A DNA stretch of 64,000 nt, taken from Alphaproteobacteria bacterium. Lineage in GTDB: Bacteria; Pseudomonadota; Alphaproteobacteria; Rhizobiales; OSC116. Where the stretch lies: positions 1 to 64,000 of the forward strand of contig NVQL02000052.1 of NCBI GenBank assembly GCA_002400495.2. The letters run 5' to 3'. The stretch's first letter is position 1. Each line of letters starts with the position of its first letter. Below, one piece after another: positions 20,660-33,142 of this stretch. The translations under genes and the position numbers were made by a program. The notes beneath the pieces are model-generated. The model had not been told where the DNA came from. It was given only the letters and a program-made list of their open reading frames with translations, and did not search any database.

Positions 20660-21511
20660 ATGAATAAACTCAAATACCGATTACTAGAGAAAACTGGTTT
20701 AAAAGCAACTGGTTTAAAAGTTTGCTATGATCAAAATGTCGTCATATCAGACCTCAGTTTAGATATTAAAACTGGCGAAATTACGATATTAGTGGGCGCT
20801 AACGGCTGTGGTAAATCTACTTTATTGAAATCCATTGCGCGCATCATTAAGCCTGAGCTTGGTAGTGTTTTGCTAGATGGTGAAAATATTCATAAAATTA
20901 AAACAAAGTATGTGGCGCAAAAACTGGGGCTTTTACCACAGGGCCCTATAGCACCCGAAGGGTTGAGTGTTAAAGAATTGGTCAGCCAAGGGCGTTTTCC
21001 GCATCAAAGCCTGTTGCGTCAATGGACTGAGCAAGATGAAACGGCTGTCACCCAAGCCATGCAAACCGCCAGAGTTGATGTTTTTGCCAATATGCAGGTC
21101 GATGAATTATCAGGTGGACAGCGCCAACGTTGCTGGATTGCGATGGCATTGGCACAAGAAACTGAGACTATTTTACTTGATGAGCCAACAACCTTCTTAG
21201 ATCTTAAAATCCAAGTTGAATTGATGGACTTGCTAGCCGATTTGGCACATAAAGGTGGCCGCACGTTGGTGATTGTTCTGCATGAGCTTAACCTTGCTGC
21301 GGCTTATGCCGATACATTAATCATGATGAAAGACGGCGAGATCACCCATCAGGGCGCCCCAAGCGAGGTTTTCACTAGCGAAAACTTAAAACAAGTGTTC
21401 GATTTAGATGCCGACATCATCATTGAACCGAAAACCAACCGCCATATATGTGTGCCACATTATAAAAATGCGGCCAGTTCAGATGCCAATGAGGTTGAAA
21501 AAACCGCATGA
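20660..21511 (+). CDS. ferric-siderophore ABC transporter ATPase (FepC/FhuC type)
   Basis: A 283-residue ATPase with Walker A GANGCGKST, signature LSGGQRQRCWIAMAL, Walker B ETILLDEPTTFLD and the switch HELNLAA, the cysteine in Walker A and the FLD ending being usual for the FepC group. Its N-terminus carries a tandem five-residue duplication (TGLKA TGLKV) from a 15-bp repeat at 20693-20720. First gene of the siderophore operon, overlapping the first permease by ATGA. Confidence 0.93.
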   Translation: MNKLKYRLLEKTGLKATGLKVCYDQNVVISDLSLDIKTGEITILVGANGCGKSTLLKSIARIIKPELGSVLLDGENIHKIKTKYVAQKLGLLPQGPIAPEGLSVKELVSQGRFPHQSLLRQWTEQDETAVTQAMQTARVDVFANMQVDELSGGQRQRCWIAMALAQETETILLDEPTTFLDLKIQVELMDLLADLAHKGGRTLVIVLHELNLAAAYADTLIMMKDGEITHQGAPSEVFTSENLKQVFDLDADIIIEPKTNRHICVPHYKNAASSDANEVEKTA

Positions 21512-22545
21512 GCCAAACCGCGACTGATATGCCCCGAATTCCCAATGTAAAGGATAAATGGCGCATGCTCACTATGGGCGTTCCCTTGATGCTGATATTG
21601 GTCGTTTCCATGTTTTTATTGCATATTTCCATCGGCGCCAAATCACTGACATATCAAACCGTTATTGACGCATTTAGTAATTTTGATGTTAAAAATTTCG
21701 ATCACATTATTATATTGAAAGTCAGGTTACCACGCGCCATCATTGCCATTGTCGTGGGTGCAAGCCTCGCGGTGGCGGGCGCAATTATGCAGGGCGTGAC
21801 ACGCAATCCACTGGCATCACCATCTATTTTGGGGCTTATGTCGGGTGCGTCATTTGCCATTGTCGTCGCACTTGGGGTGTTTGGGGTTCATTCGCCATTT
21901 TTAACCCCGTGGATTGCCGCTTTTGGTGCATTGGCGGCGGCTTTATTGGTGCTGGTCATCGCTACATTGGCGCCTGGTGGCACCAACCCGCTTAATTTGA
22001 CTCTCTCAGGTGTGGCGGTTAGCGCCTTTTTGGGTGCCATCATCTCATTGCTCAATCTCATGGATGAAGATAATTTCGATCAATTGCGGGTTTGGCTAAC
22101 GGGTTCACTAGCGGGTAAAAATTTAAATATATTTTACATCATCTCGCCGTGGCTGGTCATCACGATGATCGTTGCCATCATCCTATCGCGCAAGATCACA
22201 ATTTTAGGCATGGGCGAAGAAGTTGCCAAAGGCTTGGGCGTCAAAACCACAGGGCTTAAAATTCAACTGCTGGCCGTCGTCATAATTCTTACCGCTTGCA
22301 GTGTGGCAATGGCGGGGCCGATGGGATTTATCGGCTTGGTTGTGCCGCATATGGTGCGGCTATTCATTGGTGCTGATTATCGTTGGGTCATCCCTTATTC
22401 GGCTTTATTGGGCGCGGTATATTTATTGGCGGTCGATATCATTGCGCGGGTGATCATCGCCCCGCAAGAGGTTTCGACAGGCATCATCACCGCGCTGCTT
22501 GGTGGGCCGTTATTCATCTATCTCATCAAAACACGGGGGCGTTGA
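21508..22545 (+). CDS. FecCD-family siderophore permease 1
   Basis: A 345-residue permease of the BtuC/FecCD family with about nine to ten hydrophobic segments. Landmarks are LPRAIIAIVVGASLAVAGAI, QGVTRNPLASPSILGLMSGA and GPMGFIGLVVPHMVRLFIGAD, the last being the cytoplasmic coupling region. Starts within the ATPase stop codon and is followed 1 nt later by the second permease, with which it should form a heterodimer. Confidence 0.93.
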   Translation: MSQTATDMPRIPNVKDKWRMLTMGVPLMLILVVSMFLLHISIGAKSLTYQTVIDAFSNFDVKNFDHIIILKVRLPRAIIAIVVGASLAVAGAIMQGVTRNPLASPSILGLMSGASFAIVVALGVFGVHSPFLTPWIAAFGALAAALLVLVIATLAPGGTNPLNLTLSGVAVSAFLGAIISLLNLMDEDNFDQLRVWLTGSLAGKNLNIFYIISPWLVITMIVAIILSRKITILGMGEEVAKGLGVKTTGLKIQLLAVVIILTACSVAMAGPMGFIGLVVPHMVRLFIGADYRWVIPYSALLGAVYLLAVDIIARVIIAPQEVSTGIITALLGGPLFIYLIKTRGR

Positions 22546-22546
22546 A

Positions 22547-23599
22547 ATGAACCAGTATTTCACTTTACGCTTATTTGACCAGAAAATAGCGCTGCAGCTT
22601 CCTATCTTGGCTTTGTTGATATTTTTGGCGCTATTTTTGGCAATTGTGGCCAGTCTGGCCTTCAGTCTCAATGCGGGCAGTTATAATCTATCGCTAGCAG
22701 AGGTGTTGGATATATTGCTGGGCGAGCCAGCCGATGCGGCCAGTGAAAAAATTGTCTGGTTATTTCGCTTCCCGCGTAGTTTGGCCGCTATTTTGGTGGG
22801 GATGATGATGGCGCTTTCGGGCGCTGCCTTACAAAATATCACCCGCAATGGCTTGGCTGACCCTTCTTTGGTAGGCATCAGCCAAGGCGCGGCTTTGGCT
22901 GTGGTTGCGTCAATTATTGTCTTTCCCGAAATTAGCGCCGTATGGCGGCCTTGGTTGGCATTGCTCGGCTCGTTAAGCGTGGCGGTTCTGATTCAAGGTT
23001 TAAGTTATGAAGGCAAGGTCAGCAAACCGATTAAATTCATTCTTTTGGGCATTGGTGTTTCGGCATTTATCAGCTCAATCACCACTGCCATGCTCACTTA
23101 TGGCAATATTTATCAAGCTAGCGCGGCATTGGGTTGGTTGGCAGGTAGCATTAACGGCGCCGATTGGTTAGATGTCAAAATATTGGCCATTTCTTGTTTC
23201 ATCCTCATCCCGTTTTTATTAATCATCAGCCGTTCGATGGCAGCCATTCGTATGGGCGAGCATGTTGCCATCAGCTTAGGCACGCCGATATTATTCACCC
23301 GTTATGCACTTATTTCTATTGCAGTGGCGTTGGCGGCCATCGCCACATCGGTGGTTGGGCCATTGGGTTTTGTTGGGCTGATTGCTCCACATGCCGCGCG
23401 GCGTTTGGCGCATTGCGGCGTGGCGGTGCATTTATTGCTCACCGCACTTATTGGCGGGCTGCTGGTATTGATTGCTGACACGGCTGGCCGCGCGGCTTTC
23501 GCGCCCATTCAAATCCCCGCTGGCATTGTCACCCAAATTATTGGCGTGCCGATATTCGTTTATTTATTGCTCAGACAAAAGGCTAAAATTAACGGCTAA
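22547..23599 (+). CDS. FecCD-family siderophore permease 2
   Basis: Start placed at ATG 22547, one base after the preceding stop; a longer frame begins inside permease 1. The 350-residue product has FRFPRSLAAILVGMMMALSG, ITRNGLADPSLVGISQGAAL and VVGPLGFVGLIAPHAARRL. It completes the membrane part of the importer. A 57-nt gap separates it from the first binding-protein gene. Confidence 0.93.
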   Translation: MNQYFTLRLFDQKIALQLPILALLIFLALFLAIVASLAFSLNAGSYNLSLAEVLDILLGEPADAASEKIVWLFRFPRSLAAILVGMMMALSGAALQNITRNGLADPSLVGISQGAALAVVASIIVFPEISAVWRPWLALLGSLSVAVLIQGLSYEGKVSKPIKFILLGIGVSAFISSITTAMLTYGNIYQASAALGWLAGSINGADWLDVKILAISCFILIPFLLIISRSMAAIRMGEHVAISLGTPILFTRYALISIAVALAAIATSVVGPLGFVGLIAPHAARRLAHCGVAVHLLLTALIGGLLVLIADTAGRAAFAPIQIPAGIVTQIIGVPIFVYLLLRQKAKING

Positions 23600-23656: not shown

Positions 23657-24631
23657 ATGAAAAATTCAATCATTGAATTTGCCTTCGTAATTGGATTTGC
23701 GGCGGCAAGCCTGCTGGGTAACGCCCATGCAGCAGATACCCGCATTTTTACCGATGACCTAGGCCGCGCGGTGGAGATTCCCACCCATGCCAGCCGCATC
23801 GCTTCATTACATGATGGCATGCTCACTTTGCCGTTAATTGAATTGGGCGTCATTCCTGCTGGCAGTGCGGGGCGTATTTCAGGCGACTTACCACCATTTA
23901 TTCGCGGCTCTAAAGGCTTAACTGGCTATGATTTTGACAATAGCGACATTCAATTTTTAGGCAAATACCCCGTTGATATTGAAAAGGTTGCGGCGCTCAA
24001 GCCTGACCTGATCATCAGCACCACAACTTATGAAGATATTTTAAACAAATTGTCGGCCATTGCGCCAACCATTATCATTGACAATGTGAATAATTCACGC
24101 GAACAAATGTTTGAAACATTGGCCGACATTACGCACACTCAAAAAACATTAGATGTGTTAAAAACCCGCTATGCGCAACAGATTAAAGACATTAACACTG
24201 TCATCGATACCAAAAGTATCAGCGTCAATGTTATGCAAGCCTCTGGTGGTAAACTCTATGTCTGGCATTCATATTTCAGCCTCGGCAAAGTGCTGCGCGA
24301 TGCTGGCTTTACTTTCCCTAAATTGGTAGAGGATATTGCGGTCGGTGAACGCCGTGAGCTAAGTGCCGAAAAACTACAAGATTTAAATGCAGATTATATA
24401 TTTGTCACCTATCGCACAGATAGAGCGCGCACCCCGCAAGATGCCATGGCTGAATTTGAAAAAGTCATTCCTGATTTTTGCAACTATCTAAAAGCTTGCC
24501 GCGAAAACCGTATGCTGATGATGCCGCGCGAGGCTGCCTCTAGCACTTCTTTCACCGCGTTGGGTCTATCTGCCTTTACTGTTCTCACGCACATTAGTGG
24601 CAACCCTTATGCTGCTAAAATTACCAAATAA
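23657..24631 (+). CDS. siderophore-type binding protein, paralog 1
   Basis: A 324-residue class III (FecB/TroA-fold) binding protein. The signal peptide MKNSIIEFAFVIGFAAASLL is cleaved near HA-AD. The TGYDFDNSDIQFLG motif (about 96-109) and the KVLRDAGFTFPKLVEDI segment are shared by all five paralogs in this locus. The C-terminal lobe has a cysteine pair in FCNYLKAC. Start ATG has AAGAAAGAAGAG upstream. It is the first of three closely related tandem copies and is the natural partner of the FecCD permeases just upstream. Confidence 0.9.
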   Translation: MKNSIIEFAFVIGFAAASLLGNAHAADTRIFTDDLGRAVEIPTHASRIASLHDGMLTLPLIELGVIPAGSAGRISGDLPPFIRGSKGLTGYDFDNSDIQFLGKYPVDIEKVAALKPDLIISTTTYEDILNKLSAIAPTIIIDNVNNSREQMFETLADITHTQKTLDVLKTRYAQQIKDINTVIDTKSISVNVMQASGGKLYVWHSYFSLGKVLRDAGFTFPKLVEDIAVGERRELSAEKLQDLNADYIFVTYRTDRARTPQDAMAEFEKVIPDFCNYLKACRENRMLMMPREAASSTSFTALGLSAFTVLTHISGNPYAAKITK

Positions 24632-24642
24632 TTGGGTGTGAA

Positions 24643-25563
24643 ATGAACAGCTTCTTCACAAGCTCTTACAATTTTACTGACGATATGGGACGGCAGGTTG
24701 CGATACCTGCCACGCCTTTAAGGATCGCTTCTTTGCACGATATAAGCATCACCATTCCGCTCATCGAATTGGGCGTTTTTCCGATTGGCAGCCATGGCCG
24801 CCAACTCAAGAATGGTGCGCCTTTCATTCGCGCCTCCAAAGGCCTAACGGGTTATGATTTTGGCAATAGCGACATCGAATTTATTGGTAGCACACCGATA
24901 GATATTGACAAGCTGGCAGTGCTCCAACCTGACCTGATCATCAGCACATTTTGGCAAAAAGCAAATGTTGAAGATTTACAAGCCATCGCGCCGACCATTG
25001 TGCTTGATTGCCACCATCGTGACGAAATAGAAATATTTGATATTTTAGCCAGAATCACCCAAACCCAAGCAAGACTTAACGTGCTAAAATCTCTATATGA
25101 TGAACAGATAAATCGCATCAAACAAATCCTAGATACACAAGACACCAGCGTCAATGTCATCCAACCGTTTGAAAACAAACTATTGGTATGGCACACCTAT
25201 TCAACTTTGGGGCGTGTGTTGCGTGATGCAGGCTTTCAATTCCCGCAAGCGGTAGAAAACATCCCGCAAGGTAAGTGCGTTGAATTTGGCGCCGCACAAT
25301 TGCCCGAATTAGAAGCTGATTATGTTTTCGTCACCTACCGTACCGATAAAAACCACACACCGCAAAACAGCATAAATGGCTTGAATGCGGTCAAAAACAA
25401 TTTCGCCACTCACTTCGCCCCCGCCCAAAATGGCCGCATGCTATTTTTGCCACGCGAAGAAGCGACGAGTAACTCATTTGCTGCTTTGGCTATATGTGCA
25501 TTCACTGTGCTCACGCACATCAGTGGAAACTATATTCAAACTAGTAATAATACCCCCGCATAA
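24643..25563 (+). CDS. siderophore-type binding protein, paralog 2, without signal peptide
   Basis: A 306-residue paralog whose homology begins almost at the start (MNSFFTSSYNFTDDMGRQVA). It has no hydrophobic leader, and the 11-nt gap to paralog 1 leaves no room for one. The shared TGYDFGNSDIEFIG and RVLRDAGFQFPQAVENI motifs are intact. Where the exported paralogs have FCxxxxAC, this one reads FATHFAPAQ, so both cysteines are gone. This is what one would expect of a cytoplasmic protein. It may buffer or sense the ligand inside the cell, or be a decaying duplicate; the intact frame argues against simple decay. Confidence 0.85.
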   Translation: MNSFFTSSYNFTDDMGRQVAIPATPLRIASLHDISITIPLIELGVFPIGSHGRQLKNGAPFIRASKGLTGYDFGNSDIEFIGSTPIDIDKLAVLQPDLIISTFWQKANVEDLQAIAPTIVLDCHHRDEIEIFDILARITQTQARLNVLKSLYDEQINRIKQILDTQDTSVNVIQPFENKLLVWHTYSTLGRVLRDAGFQFPQAVENIPQGKCVEFGAAQLPELEADYVFVTYRTDKNHTPQNSINGLNAVKNNFATHFAPAQNGRMLFLPREEATSNSFAALAICAFTVLTHISGNYIQTSNNTPA

Positions 25564-26613: not shown

Positions 26614-27423
26614 ATGCTTCCTAAACTTAAAAAAATGCGATTTTTTAGTGTCAAAATTATTGCAAAAATAAAGTTGTCTCATTCCTTCACACGCATCACA
26701 TTCCAAGGTGAGAATGTTAAAAATATGCTCACCTATGCACCAGATCAATGGATTAAATTATCCATTCCTGATGCCAATGGCTTTGCGCCAAAAATTACCA
26801 ACCAAGAACAATATAATGCGATGGACAAAAATACTCGCCCGCCCATGCGCACCTATACAATACGGCATATAAGGCGAGAGCTCAACGAAGTTGATATTGA
26901 TTTTGTTCTTCACGGAGACGAAGGCCCAGCGTCTGCATGGGCAATCAAAGCCAAAATTGGTGATGAAATTCAAATGCGCGCACATTGCCATTCTATAATT
27001 AAAAAACCAGCAGGATGCCGATGGCTGCCACCAGAAGAGGCGAACGAATTTCTATTAATTGCAGATGAAACAGCAGTGCCTGCCGCAATTGGGATTTTAG
27101 AGCAATTAAGCCATTATAAAGACCCGCCCAAGGTCACCGCTTATTTTGAAGTTCCACATCAAGACGATTGTTTGGAAACTCCAAATTGGCCAGAACTAAA
27201 CTTGAATTGGCAAGTTCGAAATGAAGGTTCGCATGATTATAACCGCCTTTTAATAAATGCCGCCGAAAAATTTAATTTACCTCAAAATAACCGCTTTTAC
27301 GTGTGGCTCGCAGGAGAGACAACCGCAATTAGGCACATTCGCCTATATTTGGCTGAGGACAAAAAACTAAACAATGAAAAAATAACTTTTGCAGGTTATT
27401 GGAAATTAGGACAAGCAATTTAG
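26614..27423 (+). CDS. siderophore-interacting protein (FAD-dependent ferric-siderophore reductase, SIP/ViuB family)
   Basis: About 269 residues from ATG 26614; ATGs at 26572 and 26635 are alternatives and none has a strong Shine-Dalgarno. The FAD-binding motif is MRTYTIR, followed by VDIDFVLHGDEGPASAWA. The nucleotide-binding half has LLIADETAVPAAIGILEQL and the C-terminus FAGYWKLGQAI, all typical of the SIP family. It would release iron in the cytoplasm by reducing the imported ferric chelate. It is placed between binding-protein genes of the same cluster. Confidence 0.88.
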   Translation: MLPKLKKMRFFSVKIIAKIKLSHSFTRITFQGENVKNMLTYAPDQWIKLSIPDANGFAPKITNQEQYNAMDKNTRPPMRTYTIRHIRRELNEVDIDFVLHGDEGPASAWAIKAKIGDEIQMRAHCHSIIKKPAGCRWLPPEEANEFLLIADETAVPAAIGILEQLSHYKDPPKVTAYFEVPHQDDCLETPNWPELNLNWQVRNEGSHDYNRLLINAAEKFNLPQNNRFYVWLAGETTAIRHIRLYLAEDKKLNNEKITFAGYWKLGQAI

Positions 27424-30232: not shown

Positions 30233-30485
30233 ATGACAAAACGACGGAATTTCACAGACACTTTTAAAGCCAAATTGGCACTTGAAGCTTTGCTAGGTGA
30301 CAAGACGGTTCAGCAGATTGCTGCCAAGCATCACCTTCATCCCACACAAGTCAGCACTTGGTAGAGGGGGTACAGAAAAGTCAAAGAAATCTGGTGTTCA
30401 AGATAGTGATATCAAAGATCTTCATGCCAAAATCGGCCTTTTAGCTATGGAAAATGATTTTTTGTCACAAGGGCTAGATCGATGA
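30233..30485 (+). pseudogene. IS3 OrfA, interrupted
   Basis: The frame from ATG 30233 gives MTKRRNFTDTFKAKLALEAL and HHLHPTQVSTW, a normal OrfA HTH, then stops at TAG 30362. The C-terminal zipper (DIKDLHAKIGLLAMENDF) continues in another frame up to 30485. Compared with intact relatives some residues between the halves seem missing, so a small deletion with frameshift is likely. The element is probably unable to move on its own. Confidence 0.75.
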
Positions 30486-31336
30486 GCCCGTCTAAACGCA
30501 GAGACATGATTAAACAGGACAATGTTAACATAAGTTTGAGCCGTCAATGTAAGTTATTGAAGATTAGTCGATCTTCAATTTATTATCGTCGCGTTGGCTT
30601 TAGTCCCGCAACGCTTGATCTGATGAATGAGATTGATCGGATATTCACTAAATACCCGTTCTTTGGTAGCCGCCAGATTGCAGCTTATCTTCCAAGAAAA
30701 GGTTTTGCTGCTGGTCGTCATCGAGTTCGGCGGTTAATGGGTATTATGGGTTTGCAGACTGTTTACAAAAGGTCAAATACGAGCAAAAAGCACTCGCAGC
30801 ATCCTGTTTATCCTTATTTACTTAGAAAACTTCCCATTACCCGCGCCAATCATGTTTGGTGTAGTGACATTACCTATATTCCTATGAAGCGTGGGTTCTT
30901 ATATTTGGTTGCAATTATGGATTGGGCCACACGAAAGGTTTTGTCTTGGCGCCTTTCAAATACGTTAGATACAAGCTTTTGTATTGAGGCACTTAATGAG
31001 GCCATTGCCAAATATGGAAGGCCTGAGATTATGAATACTGATCAAGGCAGCCAATATACAAGCTCAGGCTGGGTTACTGTTTTAAGTGATGCTGGTATTA
31101 GAATGTCAATGGATGGTAGAGGTCGTTATTTGGACAATATTTTTATTGAACGTCTTTGGCGATCACTGAAACAAGAAGCCATTTATTTGCATGAAATGAC
31201 TGATGGTTTCCATGCTGGTCAAATTATTGATGATTGGATGACATTTTATAATACGGATCGCCCACACACTGCACTTGATAAACATACGCCAGATGAGATA
31301 TACTTCAAGACAATCAAACCAAGAATTGCGGCATGA
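30482..31336 (+). CDS. IS3-family transposase OrfB (integrase catalytic domain)
   Basis: A 284-residue intact reading frame starting in an ATGA overlap with the end of orfA. The helical HTH_21 region is at about 35-95. The DDE core shows D in WCSDITYIP, D in NTDQGSQYTS and E in IERLWRSLKQE. In IS3 elements OrfB is normally made as an OrfAB fusion by frameshifting; with orfA broken here that fusion cannot be complete. Confidence 0.88.
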   Translation: MSPSKRRDMIKQDNVNISLSRQCKLLKISRSSIYYRRVGFSPATLDLMNEIDRIFTKYPFFGSRQIAAYLPRKGFAAGRHRVRRLMGIMGLQTVYKRSNTSKKHSQHPVYPYLLRKLPITRANHVWCSDITYIPMKRGFLYLVAIMDWATRKVLSWRLSNTLDTSFCIEALNEAIAKYGRPEIMNTDQGSQYTSSGWVTVLSDAGIRMSMDGRGRYLDNIFIERLWRSLKQEAIYLHEMTDGFHAGQIIDDWMTFYNTDRPHTALDKHTPDEIYFKTIKPRIAA

Positions 31337-31745: not shown

Positions 31746-32153
31746 CTAAGGCAGGTCATAAAAGCCAATTGCATTGCCGAAAGGATCAGTAAACTCTGAA
31801 TAGGTCACGACATTGGGTATTTCGATTGCCTCCCCAGTATTTATGCCAACGCGCGCACGGGCGGCTTGCGCGACCTTCATGTCCTTCACCAAAAACCTGA
31901 TGATCGCGCCTGATGATTGTTGATTATTTGTCTCGTATAGTTGAAGCCAGACGCCACGCGCGGCCTTGAATTCTATAATATCTGGGGTGGGTTTGATCAT
32001 TTCGGTGTCTGCGCCAAGAAAGTTGGTATACCACTGTTCTGCTTGGTTAAGTGATGACACGGGGATCGCAATTGTGATTTCTTTGAATGGCTCTGCTGTC
32101 GCAACACTTATGATTGCCAGAAAAACCACGAAGACTTTACATAACATTTTCAT
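31746..32153 (-). CDS. VOC (glyoxalase/bleomycin-resistance fold) protein with signal peptide
   Basis: A 135-residue single-module VOC protein. The N-terminus MKMLCKVFVVFLAIISVATA is a plausible signal peptide, so it may be periplasmic, which is uncommon for this fold. The body shows ITIAIPVSSLNQAEQWYTNF and the C-terminal SEFTDPFGNAIGFYD typical of VOC modules. It lies 2 nt after the VOC gene at 32156-32533, implying one transcript. Substrate unknown. Confidence 0.8.
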   Translation of the reverse strand: MKMLCKVFVVFLAIISVATAEPFKEITIAIPVSSLNQAEQWYTNFLGADTEMIKPTPDIIEFKAARGVWLQLYETNNQQSSGAIIRFLVKDMKVAQAARARVGINTGEAIEIPNVVTYSEFTDPFGNAIGFYDLP

Positions 32154-32155
32154 AT

Positions 32156-32533
32156 TCAGGATCCTTTTGTCAAATCTTGCGCTAACATCAGCGCATTTCC
32201 ATCTGGATCGTAGAAAGTTGCGGTACTTACCATCCCTTCGACAATGTCTGTTGGCCCATCAAATTTCACGCCTTCTGCTTCTAAAGCTCGGCGCGCTATG
32301 TCAATATTTGCCACACCAAAAACAGGAACGGAATTCCCTGGTGCAGGTTCTACATGTTCACCCAAACCCAATGTCACTCCTTCGGTTTTTGTTTGCATTT
32401 CGCTCCAACCCGCTTCATCAATATGATGAATAAGCGTGAAGCCAAGCATATTTGAATACCATTTCGCGCTGATATGGCGGTCGCTTACGGATAAGGCGAT
32501 GGTAATTGTATTATCCAGTGTTATAATTGACAT
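32156..32533 (-). CDS. VOC-family protein, cytoplasmic
   Basis: Start at ATG 32533 behind AAGGAAGA gives 125 residues; an upstream in-frame start adds an unlikely extension. It contains TIALSVSDRHISAKWYSNML and the C-terminal TATFYDPDGNALMLAQD of the glyoxalase fold. It is the first gene of a two-gene VOC operon divergent from a HxlR-type regulator, so it may detoxify or modify a small inducer of that regulator. Confidence 0.83.
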   Translation of the reverse strand: MSIITLDNTITIALSVSDRHISAKWYSNMLGFTLIHHIDEAGWSEMQTKTEGVTLGLGEHVEPAPGNSVPVFGVANIDIARRALEAEGVKFDGPTDIVEGMVSTATFYDPDGNALMLAQDLTKGS

Positions 32534-32552
32534 ATTTCTTCCTTTTTGATTA

Positions 32553-32573
32553 AAAGTATATATACTATACTTT
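32553..32573. promoter_or_regulatory. candidate operator for the double-HxlR regulator
   Basis: In the 72-bp gap between the VOC operon and the regulator stands AAAGTATA-TATAC-TATACTTT, an inverted repeat with 8-bp arms and a 5-bp spacer, which also contains the 12-bp palindrome AGTATATATACT. It sits 20 nt before the VOC start codon. Confidence 0.5.
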
Positions 32574-32605
32574 ATGGACATTGAAATATTTGTCAAGGCA
32601 ATATC

Positions 32606-33142
32606 ATGAATATTGAAACCATCATCAGAGTTACGTCCCGTGCTTGGTCGCTAGAAATTCTTTCGCTTATGTTCGATGGAATAGCGGGTCGGCAAGCGCC
32701 GTTGCTTTCTGCATCAGGGGCAAGCCGAACTGCTTTCACACAAAGTTTGCACCATTTGATCGATCTTGAATTGTTAGAACGAAACCCTGGCCATGGACAT
32801 CCCTTACGACCAGAATACAGGTTAACGGCAAAAGGTGCTGAGGTCGCCGCCATTGCGCATAAAATCAAAATTCTCACGCCCTTACATACGCGCAATGCAA
32901 TTATCAGGCGCGCGTGGATTATTCCTGTTTTGGCGGTTAGTCAGAAACCACGTTATTTTAGCGAGATAAAAAGCGATCTTTGTTCGGTGACAGACCGCGC
33001 TTTGTCACAAACACTTCAACGACTTCAAGCCAATGATTGGCTTAAACGCGATGTTGATATAGAACAAAGCCCGCCTCGGCCATTATATCAAGCGGCAAAT
33101 ACTGGCATTGAAATTAGCCAAGCGGTTGATTTGGTGTTGTAA
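32606..33142 (+). CDS. transcriptional regulator with two HxlR-like winged-helix domains
   Basis: A 178-residue protein that reads as two winged helices in tandem. The first (about 10-80) includes ASRTAFTQSLHHLIDLELLE and RPEYRLTAKGAEVAAI. The second (about 105-172) includes PRYFSEIKSDLCSVTDRALS, QRLQANDWL and RPLYQAANTGIEI. HxlR proteins are normally single-domain dimers, so this looks like a fused pseudo-dimer. Divergent from two VOC genes, which it probably controls. Confidence 0.75.
   Translation: MNIETIIRVTSRAWSLEILSLMFDGIAGRQAPLLSASGASRTAFTQSLHHLIDLELLERNPGHGHPLRPEYRLTAKGAEVAAIAHKIKILTPLHTRNAIIRRAWIIPVLAVSQKPRYFSEIKSDLCSVTDRALSQTLQRLQANDWLKRDVDIEQSPPRPLYQAANTGIEISQAVDLVL

Follow-up and report, generated by a model that had tools for sequence, protein, structure and literature searches.

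Within the window, by which we mean the whole stretch of 64,000 nucleotides analysed here, lies a gene cluster encoding an ABC transporter ATPase, two permeases, five FitE-like proteins and a SIP-type siderophore reductase. The nearest named relatives belong to Hyphomicrobiales (Maritalea, Devosiaceae). On the forward strand, the FecE-type ATPase (20660..21511) is followed by two permeases of the FecCD/BtuC type (21508..22545 and 22547..23599, the latter with an uncertain start codon) and by a tandem array of binding proteins, namely P1 (23657..24631), P2 (24643..25563), which is the FitE-type protein of 306 aa considered in this report, and P3 (25589..26548). The reductase gene (26614..27423, forward strand), which had been predicted as such from its sequence and is confirmed as SIP-type by its domains (PF08021 and PF04954), is located two genes downstream of P2 and is the candidate partner of P2. 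Two more distant paralogs, P4 (27516..28565, forward strand) and P5 (28712..29686, reverse strand), complete the set. Hydrophobic leaders are present in P1 and P3 to P5, which are exported paralogs. Going by sequence alone, an open reading frame beside the array at 30482-31336 (+) looks like the integrase portion of an IS3-type transposase, and two small proteins encoded at 31746-32596 (-) and 32606-33142 (+) resemble glyoxalase/VOC-fold proteins and an HxlR-like regulator.

P2 matches the Peripla_BP_2 profile (PF01497, E 4e-15), and its closest solved structure is that of FitE of E. coli (phmmer E 3.5e-78; PDB 3be5, 3be6), a group III periplasmic siderophore-binding protein. An AlphaFold2 model of P2 (mean pLDDT 87) aligns with FitE over the full length, giving TM scores of 0.92-0.95 in Foldseek and, in VIA, a Z score of 38 with an rmsd of 1.8 A and 45% identity. 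Both the family profile and a FitE-like fold are therefore present. The binding domain also retains conserved arginines and aromatic residues (R53, R63, R194, Y232, R233 and R271), so P2 may bind a ferric siderophore; these residues are candidates by conservation rather than contacts mapped on coordinates.

FitE-type class III proteins need an export signal peptide, and P2 has none, as the original prediction had claimed. Its residues 1-10 (MNSFFTSSYN) run directly into the mature start FTDDMGR, and the highest 10-residue hydropathy within residues 1-30 is only 1.22, located in the mature domain, versus 2.1-3.0 by the same measure in leadered neighbours and relatives. A leader does not fit before P2, because merely 11 bases separate the stop codon of P1 (24629-24631) from the P2 ATG and the P2 reading frame is closed 8 codons upstream of that ATG (24619..24642, forward strand). 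A hidden or frameshifted leader is ruled out by the closed frame, by the low hydropathy, and by an ortholog that is itself leaderless and free of any frameshift.

This ortholog was found in a congeneric genome, G001 (L021:8764-9669; 56% identical to P2), where the gene order is the same as in the P2 cluster: permeases, an exported paralog, the leaderless protein, two exported paralogs, and SIP. A stop codon, TAA, directly abuts its ATG. In a tree of 37 relatives from which the trait columns had been removed, P2 and the ortholog grouped as sisters with moderate support (88/95). Leaderless orthologs had been suggested as something to look for, and a leadered ortholog combined with a frameshift in P2 would have spoken against the prediction; what the search returned was a syntenic gene without a leader. 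Relaxed selection, the other finding that would have counted against it, is likewise not seen. Over 298 codons without a stop, P2 and its ortholog are identical at codon positions 1/2/3 in proportions of.63/.77/.40, which is the pattern of exported paralog pairs and therefore indicates that selection has preserved the P2 frame; the end-branch lengths of both proteins are also like those of exported paralogs. dS is saturated in this comparison, and omega values are indicative only. By these codon patterns, P2 is under purifying selection like its leadered neighbours.

P2 had also been said to be alone among the five paralogs in having no cysteines where the others carry a C-x6-C pair. P2 is indeed the only one of the five without the pair, although the spacing is C-x5-C. 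The pair, a feature of the FitE subfamily, lies at P2 positions 255 and 261 in P1, P3, P4 and P5, and it is found in 69 of 70 exported relatives; both positions are Ala in P2. The protein is not, however, devoid of cysteines, as Cys123, Cys212 and Cys285 occur elsewhere. The ortholog has lost Cys255 and kept Cys261. Since this syntenic gene is also leaderless and without Cys255, the traits of P2 are not the chance drift of one gene. Cys212 and Cys285 are common to both leaderless proteins, are not among the common residues of exported relatives, and are unpaired.

A further difference, newly seen here, concerns the residues that contact the transporter. Class III binding proteins carry a pair of glutamates that dock to arginines of the permease; such Glu-Arg salt bridges are reported, with support from mutagenesis of FecB, FhuD2 and FeuA, to be necessary for docking (PMC3741162). 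We matched P2 positions 89 and 218 to the docking residues of BtuF by motif alignment, having selected them from the known BtuF residues while the sequences were being read. Glu occupies both positions in every one of the 70 exported relatives collected, FitE among them, and the two glutamates are kept in P1, P3, P4 and P5; they are absent from P2 (Asp/Ala) and from the ortholog (Asp/Asp). Both permeases of the cluster keep the R-x-P-R motif (RLPR and RFPR, respectively), which, by comparison with BtuC, we take to hold the docking arginine. Whereas FitE is described as periplasmic and has the C-x5-C pair and both docking glutamates in its sequence, P2 shares its full-length fold and conserved binding-domain residues without leader, pair or glutamates. 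Across 26 exported relatives, 37 positions never vary. P2 departs from this set at six (89, 218, 252, 255, 260 and 261), which are the two docking glutamates and four disulfide-loop positions. The ortholog departs from it at seven, five of them the same as in P2, and exported sequences average less than one such change. The chance that four named positions, 89 and 218 among them, all fall within the changes of P2 is about 0.001 (P), a guide only, given that the positions are assumed to be independent and that 89 and 218 were picked during sequence reading.

Taken together, P2 looks like a working cytoplasmic protein rather than a broken gene, and its location is probably the cytoplasm. Losses such as these are to be expected once a binding protein stays in this compartment. 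The original proposal of a real adaptation to the cytoplasm has gained ground, with neither of the contrary findings observed, the docking glutamates lost, and two unpaired cysteines shared by the leaderless proteins. On the other hand, Asp leaves both docking positions of the ortholog acidic, and half of its cysteine pair survives, which weighs against this reading. The best explanation overall, which we hold tentatively, is that P2 is a genuine cytoplasmic FitE-type paralog, perhaps holding ferric siderophore for SIP. A stand-alone cytoplasmic siderophore carrier, derived from a periplasmic substrate-binding protein (SBP) and handing the ferric siderophore to the SIP reductase, is possible, and we put it forward with more reserve. 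Under the best explanation, one copy of the tandem array would have lost its leader in an ancestor within the genus, which placed the start of P2 close after the upstream stop codon, where translation is probably coupled. In the cytoplasm, the disulfide and the permease-docking glutamates would no longer have been needed and would have changed, unpaired cysteines would have been gained, and selection would have preserved the fold together with the majority of conserved binding-domain residues. P2 might then hold imported ferric siderophore and hand it to the SIP-type reductase encoded nearby, much as HemO receives heme from PhuS. A role as chaperone or store, suggested in the original prediction, is plausible. 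The most likely role of P2 lies in binding imported ferric siderophore in the cytoplasm, where it would either serve SIP as carrier or buffer or act as a sensor.

A cytoplasmic sensor, which would bind imported ferric siderophore and signal via a regulator or the transporter ATPase with no handover to SIP, draws on the same structural evidence as the carrier. Siderophore sensing in the cytoplasm by SBP-like domains has precedents, an example being the cytoplasmic, siderophore-binding SBP-like domain of Btr of Bacillus subtilis. In Btr, however, this domain is joined to an AraC-type DNA-binding domain, whereas P2 stands alone, with no DNA-binding or partner domain and no regulator identified in its cluster, and we therefore regard a sensor as unlikely, if worth keeping in view. 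Somewhat less likely still is that the fold has been kept but recruited for a cytoplasmic task other than siderophore binding. Siderophore binding by P2 is putative, and the two leaderless proteins disagree at some candidate residues (183 W/F, 184 H/N), yet both retain positions 53, 63, 186, 194, 232, 233 and 271, and outside the docking sites and the disulfide loop P2 shows no change at any family-invariant position.

That P2 is a decaying duplicate, drifting since its leader was deleted in a redundant array, might be read from its lost conserved residues and from a truncated chimeric copy in another cluster of the same assembly, C120. We consider this improbable: the frame is full-length in two species despite saturated synonymous divergence, the codon-position pattern and end-branch lengths are like those of exported paralogs, and the substitutions cluster at the docking sites and around the disulfide. 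The full-length frame and the codon pattern likewise disfavour a pseudogene. P2 could, finally, act outside the cytoplasm, via an unrecognised route or a P1-P2 frameshift fusion, since it sits in an operon of exported paralogs and its open frame extends back over the final codons of P1. To this we give hardly any credence, as the docking residues and the disulfide are changed and, in the ortholog, the stop codon abutting the ATG makes a fusion or N-terminal extension impossible; a frameshift fusion is thereby ruled out.

For heme, dedicated cytoplasmic carriers stand between the importer and heme oxygenase, among them PhuS, whose protein family is unrelated to P2. PhuS is a cytoplasmic carrier that delivers heme to HemO (PMC7948967). 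PhuS-type carriers are like the proposed P2 in acting in the cytoplasm between an importer and an iron-releasing enzyme, but they carry heme, not siderophore, and the role of P2 is suggested by its gene neighbourhood only. We know of no established siderophore counterpart of these carriers that is built from an SBP. With the residues tied to export and docking alone changed in two species, P2 offers a clean and testable example from nature of what would be a transport protein relocated to the cytoplasm.

SIP is present in all three clusters of the P2 kind in the genus (the P2 cluster, G001 and C120), and none turned up in a Devosiaceae cluster of 19 kb (L023); the association is weak. The C120 cluster, which could derive from a different strain or represent a second copy, encodes an in-frame chimera of 181 aa (L022:5208-5753, reverse strand), in which a leaderless P2-like start is fused to a P3-like C-terminal part and the middle of the protein is missing. 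Because SIP is intact there, SIP does not require a P2-like protein, which is dispensable in C120. Another SIP-like gene lies near other PF01497 genes in G001 (L047:2961-3863, contig C42).

P2 was searched against genomes sampled from the order (397), from the class (385) and from Devosiaceae (136), with leaders judged by hydropathy and only matches with a locus inspected. Among relatives with loci and long frames, P2 and its G001 ortholog alone lacked the leader or the Glu/Glu pair, and these two, from one genus, are the only intact leaderless cases known. No P2 relatives were found in viral contigs, and nothing relevant on leaderless cytoplasmic siderophore SBPs was found in the open-access library searched, which does not show their absence. 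In plasmid records, all relatives were below 60% identity, and the GTDB contig collection, queried with one sequence and no profile, gave one exported relative. A PF01497-type frame of 246 aa from a different subfamily (L027:9764-10504, reverse strand, contig C41) is without the N-terminal start of the domain and adjoins further SBPs and two permease pairs.
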